The translations under genes and the position numbers were made by a program. 64,000 bases of DNA from an uncultured Lachnospiraceae bacterium. GTDB lineage: Bacteria > Bacillota > Clostridia > Lachnospirales > Lachnospiraceae. Position 1 is the stretch's first letter; every line of letters begins with the position of its first letter. Location: the NCBI GenBank assembly GCA_949840805.1, contig CATKXR010000001.1, forward strand, positions 1 to 64,000. Reading direction: 5' to 3'. The notes beneath the pieces are model-generated. The model did no database searches. It was given only the letters and a program-made list of their open reading frames with translations, and was not told the DNA's origin. Below are positions 12,399-18,847 of this stretch, piece by piece.

Positions 12399-13454
12399 TT
12401 ATTCAAATACCACACAGGTCATGGACTGATTGACAAAACGGTTGTTGTAATGCTCTCCATACCCTACCAGGCCCCCATGGCTGCCCAGGGAACTCATTTC
12501 TTTTAAATAATCCCCCATATAGCCGTTCTCACTGAACAGCTTATAACGGAACAGGCAGTTTACGGAAAACACTGCCGAGATCTTGGGGAATTCCCTGCGG
12601 ATGGTCCCTATAGTCTCCTTTACAATAGCCCGGTAATCTCCCAGCTCCAAAAGCACCAGCACATCTGAATCATTGACCTGCCGGAAACAGGCCAGGCTAT
12701 CTCCCTGCACTTCTTTAATGGAAATGATGCAGACATCATCTCCATTGACCTTGCCAAAAGGATTCTTGAAAGTCTGGGTGGAAATCTCCTGCTCTGTCAC
12801 CTTAAGGATCTTCTGGTATACCTGTTTGGCAGGCATCCCATTCAAGGCGCCAAGGACGTATCTGGCCCGGTCTGTCCGGGAAGCGATAAACCGGTAATCT
12901 CCTTTTGTATGATAAATATTCTCTTTATATGCTTTTACTTTACCGCCTTCATTCCGGATCAGCGCATAGGCGACCCCGTCAGGGTAGACTCTGCCGTTGG
13001 CGGAAACCCTTCCTCCATCGCCGGTTCCTCCTACCAGGGAAATATTCCTGCGTTTTAATACACTGTAAATGGTAGTCAGCACACAGGCATCGTTTCCGGA
13101 ACAGAAATCAATGCAGATGGTATCTTTTTGGGAACCATCAACCTGGTCCACATCTTTCTCCAGGCGCCCTATGTACCTTACCGGCATGACAGATACCTGC
13201 TCCAGCACATTGGCCGCCGCTGAAACCCCGTCCAAAAAGGCGATCACTCCCACTCCGTCCTCGACTACCTGGGTGTCATAACTCATCCCGATACAGCCGA
13301 TACTTGGCACTCCTGGAAAAAGCTCCTCCAATTCTTTTACATGGGCCTCAAACTGTCTGTCATTGGACATCAAAAGAAGCATCTGCGGCATATGAAGCCC
13401 TTTTACGGCCTCACGCAGATCCCCGTGTTTGCTCATTCCAAAAAATTGTCTCAT
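12399..13454 (-). CDS. FIST-domain sensor protein
   Basis: This 351-aa cytoplasmic protein fits the FIST N plus FIST C arrangement, a predicted small-ligand (amino-acid-like) sensing module found with signal-transduction proteins. Family-like features are GCIGMSY near residue 54, the central SLVGGTGDGG near 138-148, and a C-terminal domain with cysteines near the end. No enzyme motif or membrane segment is seen. It is the promoter-proximal gene of a pair with the soluble chemoreceptor and has a strong promoter and a structured leader upstream. The ligand is unknown. Confidence 0.8.
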   Translation of the reverse strand: MRQFFGMSKHGDLREAVKGLHMPQMLLLMSNDRQFEAHVKELEELFPGVPSIGCIGMSYDTQVVEDGVGVIAFLDGVSAAANVLEQVSVMPVRYIGRLEKDVDQVDGSQKDTICIDFCSGNDACVLTTIYSVLKRRNISLVGGTGDGGRVSANGRVYPDGVAYALIRNEGGKVKAYKENIYHTKGDYRFIASRTDRARYVLGALNGMPAKQVYQKILKVTEQEISTQTFKNPFGKVNGDDVCIISIKEVQGDSLACFRQVNDSDVLVLLELGDYRAIVKETIGTIRREFPKISAVFSVNCLFRYKLFSENGYMGDYLKEMSSLGSHGGLVGYGEHYNNRFVNQSMTCVVFE

Positions 13455-13585: not shown

Positions 13586-13817
13586 CTATTTTTTGGTGAA
13601 AATGGAAGGAAGAAGAAAAGCTGGCTGCTATAAATTGTGTTATATTAGAAATTTTAATAAATATGACGATTGTCTTTCCCATATCTAATATGTTACACTG
13701 ACTTTATATAATTTAACATTTTTTTTACGACTTCATCAATAATTGGCAGATTCGGCTGATACCATGATACAGGTTAACCTGCCATATATATTTATTACAT
13801 TTTGGGAGGACTCGCAA

Positions 13818-15347
13818 ATGGGCGGATTTTTTGGTGTTGCATCAAAGACAGATTGTGTCATGGATCTATTTTTTGGAACGGACTACCATTCCCACTTAGG
13901 AACACGCCGGGGCGGCATGGCGGTCTATGGCAAAAACGGTTTTCAGAGAAGCATCCACAACATCGAGAATTCCCCGTTCCGCACAAAGTTTGAGCGGGAT
14001 GTGGAAGAACTTTCCGGCAATTCGGGCATTGGCTCCATTTCTGACAATGAACCGCAGCCTCTGCTGATCCAGTCCCATCTTGGCAGCTATGCTATCGTGA
14101 CGGTTGGCAAAATCAACAATGAGGAATTTCTGATCCGGCAGGCTTTTGAAAATGGCCATATCCACTTTATGGAGATGTCAGGAGGGCGTATCAATGCCAC
14201 GGAACTGACCGCTTCCATCATTAACCAGAAGCAGAGCCTGGTGGAGGGGCTTCTCTATGCGCAGGAACTGATTGAAGGCTCCATGACCATTCTTCTTTTG
14301 ACTCCGGAGGGTATTTATGCTTCCAGAGACCGGTATGGACGCACTCCCGTGGTAATTGGCCAGAAGGATGGCGCCTACTGTGTTTCCTTTGAAAGCTTTG
14401 CCTATATTAACCTGGGATTCCATGACTGCACGGAACTTGGCCCCGGAGAAATCGCACTAGTCAATCCGTCAGGGATCCAAACTCTCAGCAAGCCCAGAAA
14501 AGAAAGGAAGGTCTGCTCCTTTCTTTGGGTATATTACGGTTATCCTACCTCCAGCTATGAAGGGGTAAATGTGGAAGAGATGCGCTACCGCTGCGGGGAG
14601 ATCCTGGCCAGACGGGATCTTGACTGCGGCAGGGAAAGCTGTGAAAACTGCCCGGGACATGCAGAACCAGGTTCTTCATGGGCAGGAAAGGAAAAGCTAA
14701 AAAGTCTTTCGGCAGCAGAGACCCAAAAGCCGGACGGCAGCTCCATCCATCCTGATATTGTGGCAGGCGTGCCGGATTCAGGAATTGCCCATGCCATCGG
14801 CTACGCCAACCAGTCAGGGATTCCCTTTGCCCGTCCTTTTATAAAATATACCCCTACCTGGCCCCGTTCTTTTATGCCTCAGAATCAGAGCCAGCGAAAT
14901 TTAATCGCAAAGATGAAGCTGATTCCTGTAGATGCCCTTATTCGTGGAAAAAGCCTTCTTTTGATAGACGATTCCATTGTACGCGGCACCCAGTTAGGAG
15001 AGACCACCGAATTTCTGTATAAAAGCGGAGCCAGGGAAGTACACATCCGTCCTGCATGCCCTCCGCTGCTGTTTGGATGCAAATACCTGAATTTTTCCCG
15101 CTCCAGTTCTGATTTGGATCTGATCACCCGCCGGATCATCCGGGAACGGGAAGGTGACAATCTGTCCCCGGAACTGCTGGCCGACTATGCAGACCCGGAC
15201 AGTAAGAACTATTCCCAAATGGTTGAGGAGATCCGCAAACGGCTGAATTTCACCTCCCTCAAGTACCATCGCCTGGATGACCTGATCAAATCCATCGGAC
15301 TTCCGGCAGACTCCTTGTGTACCTTTTGCTGGAGCGGAAAAGAATAG
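13818..15347 (+). CDS. PurF-like phosphoribosyltransferase with degenerate glutaminase domain
   Basis: The fold is that of amidophosphoribosyltransferase: an N-terminal Ntn glutaminase domain and a C-terminal type I phosphoribosyltransferase domain with an intact PRPP loop, LLLIDDSIVRGTQ. The N-terminus, however, reads MGGFFGV where PurF has a catalytic Cys1 (MCG), and the usual HNG glutamine-site motif is replaced by VGK. Glutamine hydrolysis is therefore unlikely. The PRTase domain has an insert with clustered cysteines (CGRESCENC). The start at 13818 (509 aa) has GGGAGG about 8 nt upstream; a TTG further out has no support. It stands alone before a strong terminator. It may be an ammonia-dependent enzyme, a different PRPP enzyme, or a regulator. 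Confidence 0.8.
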   Translation: MGGFFGVASKTDCVMDLFFGTDYHSHLGTRRGGMAVYGKNGFQRSIHNIENSPFRTKFERDVEELSGNSGIGSISDNEPQPLLIQSHLGSYAIVTVGKINNEEFLIRQAFENGHIHFMEMSGGRINATELTASIINQKQSLVEGLLYAQELIEGSMTILLLTPEGIYASRDRYGRTPVVIGQKDGAYCVSFESFAYINLGFHDCTELGPGEIALVNPSGIQTLSKPRKERKVCSFLWVYYGYPTSSYEGVNVEEMRYRCGEILARRDLDCGRESCENCPGHAEPGSSWAGKEKLKSLSAAETQKPDGSSIHPDIVAGVPDSGIAHAIGYANQSGIPFARPFIKYTPTWPRSFMPQNQSQRNLIAKMKLIPVDALIRGKSLLLIDDSIVRGTQLGETTEFLYKSGAREVHIRPACPPLLFGCKYLNFSRSSSDLDLITRRIIREREGDNLSPELLADYADPDSKNYSQMVEEIRKRLNFTSLKYHRLDDLIKSIGLPADSLCTFCWSGKE

Positions 15348-15360
15348 GCTAAAATCATAC

Positions 15361-15420
15361 AACCCCCTCATAGGAAGCAGGCAATCCTATCGCCTGCTTC
15401 CTATGAGGGGGTTATTTTCC
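15361..15420. terminator. Perfect 22-bp-stem terminator
   Basis: AACCCCCTCATAGGAAGCAGGC (15361-15382; stem quoted in parts by position) pairs perfectly with 15392-15413 around a 9-nt loop. On the plus strand it is followed by ATTTTCCCTTTTTC, ending the PurF-like gene. The stop codon of the convergent VanZ gene lies inside the right arm. Confidence 0.92.
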
Positions 15421-17164: not shown

Positions 17165-18847
17165 TCATCCTTTTCTTAACTGGAACCGCTGTACCAGCAT
17201 CTTCATTTCCTCTGCCTGGACATTCAGATCCCTTGCCGTACCTGCCGACTTTTCTGCAGTGGCCGCATTGGTCTGAACCACATTGGAGATCTGCTCCATG
17301 CCCTCGGTAAGCTGGGACAGGGATTCCGCCTGCCCAATGGCAGATTCCGCAATCCGACCCACCAGCTCCGTAGACCGCCTGGCGCCTAAAACACCTGTGG
17401 CAAGCGACTGGGTCGTATCGGTGGACAAAGCAGTACCATGGGCCACCAGCTTCATAGAAGTCTCAATCAGCTTGGTTATGTCCTTTGCTGCAACAGAACT
17501 CTTGGTGGCAAGGCTCTGCACCTCGTCCGCCACCACAGCAAACCCCTTGCCTGCCGCGCCTGCGCGGGCTGCCTCGACCGCCGCGTTCAAAGCCAGGATA
17601 TTGGTCTGGAAGGAAATATCTTCAATGGTCTTGATGATGCCGCTGATCTGCTTGGAAGATTTGGAGATGTCTTCCATGGCGACCGTGAGCTGTTCCATCT
17701 TCTGGTTGCATACGGTAAGCTGCTCCGTAGCGTCAATGGAACACTGCCTGGCATCCTTGGCATCCTCGGAAGTAGAATTCACCTGATGGGATAATTCCTG
17801 GATACTGGCGGAAAGTTCTTCCACAGCCGAAGCCTGGGCAACGGCCCCGTCAGAGAGGACCTGGGCGTCTGACGCCATCTGCTCTGACTCTGCCGAAACA
17901 TGCCCCGATGTCTGGTTAATCCGGGAAAGCGCATGGTTTAAAGAATCAAGAATCTGCTTCATGGCCTGCTGGATGGGACGGAACTCACCGCGGTAATCGT
18001 CACCGATAACCTGATCCATCTTGCCGTCCGCCATCTGGGCCAGCTTGGAATCAATGTCATGAATATATTTTTTCAGTTCATTTTTCGTGTCGTAAATGGA
18101 TGCCACTAACATACCGATCTCCGAAGTGTCCGGCTCTAAGGGGAACTCGGCAGAAAGATTGCCCTGGGAAATCTCTCCCACCTGATCCCGAATCACAAAA
18201 ATCGGCTTTAATATCTTATTTTTCGTCACTGCCATGACAATAACCTGCATAGCCGCAACAATTATTACTGCAACGAATATAAGCAGCCGAATGATCTCCG
18301 CTTTCAGCTTCAGATCCTTTACCTTGGATAAAGTCCTGTTCTCAAGCGCAGACAGAAACTGCTCTTTTAAAGCGTTGATCTTTGTAACGGAATTTTCATA
18401 TTCCAGACCGTACACGGAAGCAACGGCCGCCTCTATATTGCCCTGGTTCACGTTCTCCATGGCCGCTTCCTCCAGGGGAACCAGGTCATTGGACATGGAA
18501 GACATCTCGTCGATCATGGCCTGCTCATTGGCAGTGATTCCGATCTCCTGCATGGCGGCAAGGCCATAGTCACGGTTTTTATCCTCATTGATCTCATCCC
18601 AGTAATTGTTGTAATGGGTCAGATTTCCAGTGGCGGAGTAAGCACGCACCTCATTAGTCAGGGTGGACGACCCGTTCATGAAACGATTCGCATTATAAGT
18701 AAGGTCAAAACGCTCATCATTTGCCAATGAAAGCTGATTACTCACACTGCTGTAATAAAATAAAAACACTGTCATTAACAGCAATGCCAACATGGAAACA
18801 CCATTTAAGATCAAGGTTAGTTTTGACAGATTCATTGCCTTTTTCAT
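17165..18847 (-). CDS. Membrane methyl-accepting chemotaxis protein
   Basis: A classical transmembrane chemoreceptor of 560 aa. It has one membrane helix at about 9-31, a roughly 150-residue extracellular helical-bundle ligand domain, a second membrane helix at about 186-208, a HAMP domain (about 210-265) and a cytoplasmic signalling coiled coil. The signalling tip reads [20 protein letters not shown]. Adaptation and CheA/CheW binding are inferred from the family. Its ligand domain has no recognisable binding motif. The downstream NCS2 permease gene (15 bp) hints at a nucleobase or related ligand. AAGGAGAG precedes the ATG. Confidence 0.9.

Follow-up and report, generated by a model that had tools for sequence, protein, structure and literature searches.

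The window analysed here, a stretch of 64,000 nucleotides from an uncultured Lachnospiraceae bacterium, encodes a PurF paralogue without a glutaminase, probably a PurF-descended phosphoribosylamine (PRA) synthase that has given up glutamine and uses ammonia, and that serves as the sole PurF-type enzyme in some genomes and as an isozyme in others. At the level of sequence, the sampled family has lost the residues of the glutaminase, has kept those of the PRPP site and the Fe-S-type cysteines and is under purifying constraint; it forms one clade, co-occurs with PurD in genomes without PurF and is found at the purF location of the purine operon.

The window gene and its lost glutamine site

The gene and its immediate signals are as follows.

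13804..13809, + strand: ribosome-binding site GGGAGG, read from the sequence
13818..15347, + strand: coding sequence of the PurF paralogue without glutaminase, 509 aa, supported by the ORF list, the sequence, the HMM score and homologues
15362..15412, no single strand: bidirectional intrinsic-terminator-like hairpin 3' of the gene, with sites on both strands

Translation begins at an ATG and the N-terminus reads MGGFFGVASK. Purine-rich stretches resembling the ribosome-binding site precede the starts of many of 80 relatives. A missed upstream start restoring the canonical MCG was ruled out, as the listed in-frame 5' extension, which opens with a TTG at 13743, is 25 residues long and contains no Cys. 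The copy is solitary, with no pur genes adjoining. A divergent FIST-domain gene (12399-13454) adjoins the locus upstream, the opposite strand carries, downstream, VanZ-like and xanthine/uracil-permease genes, separated from the window gene by the terminator-like hairpin, and a methyl-accepting chemotaxis gene is found a few kb off (17165-18847). Terminator-like sites numbered four in the scanned region, against a mean of 2.5 in shuffled sequence.

The PurF equivalog model TIGR01134 gave the window protein 164.2 bits, below its curated cut-off of 350, and Pfam returned GATase_7 and PRTase matches at sub-threshold level only; relatives occupying the purine-operon slot scored 156.9 bits each against the same model. 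The genome to which the window belongs (5.0 Mb, 152 contigs, 90% completeness, 6.35% contamination) also has a canonical purF on contig C7, as a check suggested with the original prediction had asked; its product scores 523 bits, above the cut-off, and carries EECGVFG and HNGN. This purF is flanked by purC and purB-purA as read from the sequence, PurF alone having been tested by HMM. A candidate stand-alone PurF glutaminase on contig C118 (L007:1420-2019) was rejected, as it proved to be the 5' end of another canonical purF (EECGVFG), cut off where the contig stops; given the contamination of the assembly, this piece may be a second copy or foreign DNA.

The lost glutamine site was followed in an alignment of 133 family rows, made up of the window protein, 80 best-matching relatives (the best loci of a longer match list from a scan of genome contigs) and 52 rows from further loci, against 26 canonical PurFs. 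The 133 rows pool two sets and keep near-duplicates; a non-redundant set comprised 59 rows. The features of the N-terminal half are listed below.

13818..14510, + strand: N-terminal Ntn-like (former glutaminase) domain, residues 1-231, from the structure model and PDB matches
13821..13823, + strand: Gly2 codon, at the site of the nucleophilic Cys of class II amidotransferases, from the alignment
13881..13916, + strand: motif DYHSHLGT(R/K)RGG in place of the PurF LQHRGQ loop, the PurF Arg being replaced by Leu27, from the alignment
13953..13991, + strand: motif IHNIENxPFRTKF, mostly without PurF counterpart, several columns being gapped in PurF
14025..14060, + strand: motif GIGxISDxEPQP, the PurF HVRYST loop with the second Gln-binding Arg being deleted, from the alignment
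14100..14120, + strand: TVGKINN in place of HNGN at the glutamine site, from the alignment

At position 2 the family has Gly in 121 rows, Ser in 11 and a gap in one (L100, shortened by trimming), whereas the nucleophile column of the PurF rows holds Cys in 25 of 26 and a gap in the other. None of the 80 best homologues among the matches listed starts with MCG; 78 start with MGG and two with MSG. The original prediction had read MGG where MCG belongs and VGK in place of the HNG motif, and had asked whether the whole group shares these changes. Both readings hold, and the changes are common to the 133 aligned rows, with the Asn column of the HNG motif occupied by Val, Ile, Thr or Ala throughout. 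The other residues that hold glutamine, which we take to be R26, R73, N101 and D127 in E. coli PurF numbering, are affected as well: the Arg of QHRG is Leu in every family row, the column of the second Arg (HxR loop) is a gap in every row, and the Asp column of SDxE is Ala, Pro, Ser, Gln, Val or Thr in the 127 of 133 rows shown. No Cys within residues 1-231 is conserved to 97% of family rows.

New residues are fixed in the same loops. D22, Y23, S25, H26 and L27 are present in 133/133 rows and H24 in 132, H26 sharing its column with a His also present in the canonical PurF of the window's genome; H47 and R55 are likewise found in 133/133 and K57 in 131, and S75 and D76 are without exception. 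As aligned, the glutamine pocket is rebuilt, with new invariant residues where the glutamine loops stood. Mean pairwise identity over residues 1-231 was 0.59 among the 59 non-redundant family rows and 0.49 among the 26 PurFs, and over residues 232-435 it was 0.70 and 0.59, respectively. Judged by these identities, the former glutaminase domain is no less constrained than its PurF counterpart, which points to purifying constraint and not decay. A decaying pseudogene was rejected on this constraint and on the absence of any inner stop from the 83 full matches of the class search described below; the 133 aligned rows were chosen as open frames, and their openness is uninformative on decay.

A structure model (m7fbc0c74b8ab, built with 25 sequences) has high pLDDT over most of residues 1-230, and its PRTase half is predicted with low confidence. 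Among PDB entries it comes closest to B. subtilis PurF (1ao0, E 7e-25), the top match of the sequence comparison too, and the N-domain of the model additionally matches the GlmS glutaminase domain 1xff.

The PRTase half and the spread of the family

The PRTase half holds the following features.

14514..14516, + strand: Cys233, first Fe-S-type cysteine, Cys in 133/133 family and 26/26 PurF rows
14619..14741, + strand: lineage-specific insert with three clustered cysteines, residues 268-308, in the window protein and L012-L016
14832..14879, + strand: rebuilt catalytic flexible loop RPFIKYTPTWPRSFMP (PurF: KN(R/K)Y(V/I)GRTFI), from the alignment
14964..14990, + strand: PRPP loop IDDSIVRGT, intact, residues 383-391, from the alignment
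15078..15080, + strand: Cys421, second Fe-S-type cysteine, in 133/133 family rows
15318..15329, + strand: Cys501 and Cys504 (CxxC), third and fourth Fe-S-type cysteines, each in 133/133

The PRPP loop, described from the outset as intact, is unchanged throughout the family: D384, D385, S386, V388, R389, G390 and T391 occur in 133/133 rows, as do the Gly, Pro, Asp, Ser and Gly of the PPi loop GVPDSG. The four cysteines of B. subtilis type (C233, C421, C501 and C504), which had escaped the earlier reading, are Cys in all 133 rows, and their columns are presumably Fe-S ligands. The flexible loop is altered, with KYTPTWPRSF standing where PurF has KN(R/K)Y(V/I)GRTF; one change replaces Tyr by Pro, Y344 and P346 are found in 133/133 rows, and W348 is an inserted residue.

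The insert with clustered cysteines, which had drawn attention at first, does exist at residues 268-308. It turned out to be a local oddity and was rejected as a hallmark of the family, being present in only six of 81 rows (the window protein and L012-L016), with three to five Cys each. Its absence elsewhere was judged from protein lengths and from the aligned rows shown; the 16 rows unmatched by the insert pattern are at most 479 aa long and have room for few residues at most. From its distribution, the insert looks like a recent local acquisition in a loop that tolerates change, and it is distinct from the cysteines of Fe-S type.

A profile of 25 rows (A1) was used for the phylum and class searches. 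In the phylum search, 28 of 398 genomes reached 700 bits, and the best of the remaining matches, at 246 bits, was a divergent PurF with its Cys kept (L218, in G012). In the class search, for which a completeness of at least 95% was requested and to which the window's genome was added at 90%, 83 of 293 genomes scored at least 590 bits with the family profile. G596, whose match is only partial and lies at the end of a contig, stands outside the 83; a split copy without a listed PurF (G608, second piece 345 bits) is counted among them, and not among the 22 PurF-less carriers described below. Apart from that 345-bit piece, all other matches of both searches scored 246 bits or less and were Cys-bearing PurFs in nearly all cases read. 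The divergent PurF of G012 (contig C59, CGVLGLSFTDE) sits on a long branch and is nearest to the family by score. Another genome, G194, has two full family copies (783 and 777 bits, contigs C67 and C49) among three profile matches.

In a tree built by a quick method from 62 rows of the family and 26 PurFs, a branch with 100% SH-aLRT support separates the two groups, and the family has a long stem. On this tree and these searches, the glutaminase-less PurF paralogue is one clade spread through Clostridia.

Genomes without PurF

The family protein is the sole profile match in 22 of the 83 class carriers. At least one further profile match occurs in 60 of the 83, a count that excludes the second piece of G608 and in which canonical PurF status was checked for some. 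Together with G339, from the phylum search, the 22 carriers gave a PurF-less set of 23 genomes. None of the 23 reached the cut-off of the PurF model, whose sole match at E 1e-35 in each was the family protein. PurD was above its cut-off in 21 of them, belonging to 13 families; two of these 21 PurD matches (G579 and G537) have an in-frame TAA inside the matched stretch. The two genomes in which PurD was not seen are G566, whose sequence reads N after purH, and G339, which is 92% complete; the latter, a carrier lacking both PurD and PurF, may be a real exception. As a control, 31 genomes with neither protein were taken, 20 of the 37 no-match genomes of the class search and 11 from the phylum search, the remaining 17 of the 37 lying outside the control. 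PurF at E 1e-35 was found in 0/31 and PurD above cut-off in 2/31, a third genome having a fragment below it. The association with PurD (21/23 versus 2/31) gives a Fisher p of about 1e-10 with related genomes and kinship uncorrected. Considering that the genomes are related and that the control includes several reduced genomes, the co-occurrence still suggests a strong association. On the family tree, PurF presence or absence requires at least 10 changes over 53 rows, where PurF was scored as present in 30 rows from a second profile match or from other search results and not from a row-by-row check.

Since PurD consumes PRA and is kept where PurF is absent, the family protein most likely performs the PRA-forming step of the purine pathway. 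Gene order points the same way in part of the sample. The family locus was fetched for 15 PurF-less genomes, mostly drafts, and in six of them (G572, G409, G455, G434, G536 and G566) the family gene lies in a pur operon directly before purM, whereas the window locus has no pur neighbours. With X for the family gene, the order is purE-purC-X-purM-purN-purB-purH-purD-purL in G572, a genome consisting of a single 1.67-Mb contig, purE-purC-X-purM in G536, and purE-X-purM in the other four. In the G409 operon, purE, purM, purN, AICAR transformylase, purD and purL were confirmed by HMM, and a PurO-type gene scored below cut-offs. No pur gene was seen beside the family gene in the other nine. Five of these (G393, G440, G479, G504 and G467) have the family gene elsewhere; in their pur operon purM comes directly after purE, and the sequence fetched there contains no purF, G393 showing a whole purE-purM-purN-purO-purH-purD-purL operon; for G537, G410, G339 and G669 the family locus alone was fetched and had no pur genes.

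Genomes with a further PurF-type match also include pur-linked copies. The family gene lies between purC and purM in G065 and G377; canonical purF, the family gene, purM and purN are consecutive in G247 (L118); and canonical purF is directly upstream of the family gene in G535 (L147). Canonical purF was inside the fetched stretch of only four of the 80 best-matching loci (L050, L079, L084 and L086). Among the 79 of 81 loci that could be placed (L069 and L090 being left out), there was no conserved neighbourhood, the commonest neighbour family occurring in 14. No purine or PRPP riboswitch was found upstream of the gene in the window or in 11 of the 80 relatives' loci; the scan matched one glycine riboswitch, away from the gene in L019, and one tRNA.

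Two of the operons hold an additional gene between purM and purN (L192:9117-9806 in G536 and L205:10665-11273 in G566). A glutaminase at this place was considered and rejected, as the gene belongs to the formate/nitrite transporter family (PF01226). A formate channel feeding formyl-THF would make sense there, or a channel for another substrate. Separately, a PurO-type IMP-cyclohydrolase-like gene, below curated cut-offs, adjoins a separate AICAR transformylase in G409 (L189:9933-10658) and is fused to PurN in G572 (L188:9715-11148).

Proposed function and alternatives

In E. coli PurF, replacement of the N-terminal Cys abolished activity with glutamine and left activity with ammonia (Mei and Zalkin 1989, as cited in PMC3261824). 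Since the residues for PRPP use are kept in the family, those for glutamine use are lost, and such a Cys-less PurF is active, the simplest mechanism would be PRPP + NH3 -> PRA + PPi. We thus infer that PRPP is bound in the PRTase half and reacts there with ammonia to give PRA and PPi, which would be the reaction that commits the cell to making purines. The N-terminal Ntn-type domain would no longer hydrolyse glutamine, its nucleophile and ligands being lost and its pocket rebuilt, and its role is now probably that of a scaffold through which ammonium enters or is gated, or that of a sensor. The family protein would be the sole PurF-type enzyme in a good part of the Clostridia carriers; in the window organism and others it would accompany canonical PurF as a second isozyme, perhaps for ammonium-rich conditions. 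Gut anaerobes often live with high ammonium, and a glutamine-independent enzyme would therefore be affordable to them. Counterpoints to this reading include the position of most copies away from pur genes, the two PurF-less genomes in which PurD was not seen, the two of 31 control genomes that have PurD yet neither enzyme, and the existence of other routes to PRA.

The changes in the flexible loop (Tyr to Pro, with an inserted Trp) and the new invariant residues of the N-domain go, as far as the alignment tells, beyond what plain loss of a glutaminase needs. It is conceivable, as a more tentative extension, that the old pocket has become a site which takes another nitrogen donor or perceives ammonium or a nucleotide as a signal, formed by D22, H24, S25, H26, H47, R55, K57, S75 and D76, and that the family is an obligately glutamine-independent, regulated class of PRA synthases which has displaced PurF repeatedly across Clostridia.

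Four other explanations were weighed against the ammonia-using PRA synthase. The protein could make PRA with ammonia from a separate glutaminase docking on the altered N-domain, so that glutamine would remain the ultimate donor. An N-domain that is kept, strongly constrained and provided with new invariant residues is what a docking face might look like. Against it, the placed loci have no common neighbour (the top family reaches 14 of them); copies in pur operons adjoin pur genes, and the extra gene of G536 and G566 is a channel of formate/nitrite type. We regard this arrangement, in which the partner could also be encoded elsewhere, as rather unlikely.

Use of the PRTase for another acceptor, a small amine or amide, with a product outside purine synthesis and PRA made otherwise in the PurF-less genomes, is still harder to uphold. 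It would agree with the rebuilt flexible loop and pocket, with the lack of common neighbours among the 80 best-matching loci and with G339, which keeps the family protein while PurD and PurF go undetected; the pur-operon slot and the PurD association in PurF-less genomes speak against it, and its probability is low.

It is very improbable that the protein is a regulatory pseudoenzyme which senses PRPP or a nucleotide and acts as a partner of canonical PurF, without catalysis of its own, even with a further profile match in 60 of 83 carriers and with purF directly beside the family gene in G247 and G535, an arrangement that fits a partner subunit too. The residues of its PRPP loop are invariant, canonical PurF, the protein to be regulated, is missing from 22 of the 83 carriers, and six genomes have the family gene in the purF slot itself. 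A pure regulator is weakened because its supposed target is absent from the PurF-less genomes. The original prediction had offered either a PRPP enzyme with a new nitrogen donor or a regulator, and its first half is the best reading of the data; its further statement that this is not the purine-pathway PurF is not supported, since PurD in 21 of 23 PurF-less genomes and the purF slot in six indicate that the protein most likely performs the pathway step, without glutamine. Finally, a glutamine amidotransferase with an unorthodox nucleophile, such as the invariant Ser25, can be dismissed almost entirely: D22, H24, S25, H26, S75 and D76 are invariant or nearly so in the old-pocket loops, but the glutamine-holding residues (R26, R73, N101 and D127) are replaced or deleted and the stretch of residues 1-231 has no Cys conserved to 97%.

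Compared with known systems, the family resembles PurF of the B. subtilis Fe-S type (EC 2.4.2.14) in its two domains, its PRPP and PPi loops, its four Fe-S-type cysteines, its pur-operon slot in several genomes and its best PDB match, 1ao0, by both sequence and fold. Unlike PurF, it has no N-terminal Cys, has lost the glutamine-site residues, has a rebuilt flexible loop and an extra C-terminal stretch, scores 164 bits against a cut-off of 350 and forms a separate clade on a long stem. Ammonia-dependent versions of amidotransferases exist elsewhere, as in AsnA versus AsnB and in NadE without glutaminase, and follow the same logic of a glutamine and an ammonia enzyme for one step; the AsnA and NadE types lack a glutaminase domain or are unrelated, whereas the present family keeps the domain in remodelled form. 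It also differs from the Cys-replaced E. coli enzyme, which is a laboratory mutation, in being natural and in having its pocket rebuilt.

A precedent is PurF', a Cys-less protein reported from Crenarchaeota, where each organism also has one true PurF (Brown et al. 2011, PMC3261824). In that account, many PurF' carry Ala or Val, a Ser variant (Mlab_0150) occurs in a euryarchaeon beside a normal PurF, and an ammonia-dependent PRPP aminotransferase is named as one possibility needing a test. The two groups share a PurF-like sequence, a missing N-terminal Cys and, in some of the Clostridia genomes, proximity to pur genes, and the adjacency of purF and paralogue in G247 and G535 resembles that of crenarchaeal purF and purF'. 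As PurF' is described there (PMC3261824), the present family is set apart by its Gly or Ser, by its occurrence in Clostridia and by the lack of PurF in 22 of 83 carriers. The yeast PRPP amidotransferase is reported to synthesise PRA with NH3, depending on ammonium in the medium (PMC12017579), and in Salmonella other routes to PRA exist, none of those then known meeting the purine requirement (PMC3485032). Searches of the open-licence PMC literature listed no recognisable report of PurF relatives without the Cys in Clostridia, nor of an experiment on PurF'. The family would give natural support to the PurF' hypothesis of 2011 (PMC3261824).

An equivalog model that does not pass the family has a practical side, as a pipeline resting on it would find purine synthesis lacking its first step. 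Textbooks describe this committed step as glutamine-dependent. A version without glutaminase is found in a large clade of Clostridia, many of which come from guts, and is seemingly the only one in about a quarter of the carriers sampled (22/83), and PurF-less genomes such as G572 make glutamine-independence directly testable. If the ammonia-using reading is true, it changes predictions of purine prototrophy, nitrogen use and sensitivity to glutamine analogues for the bacteria that carry it.
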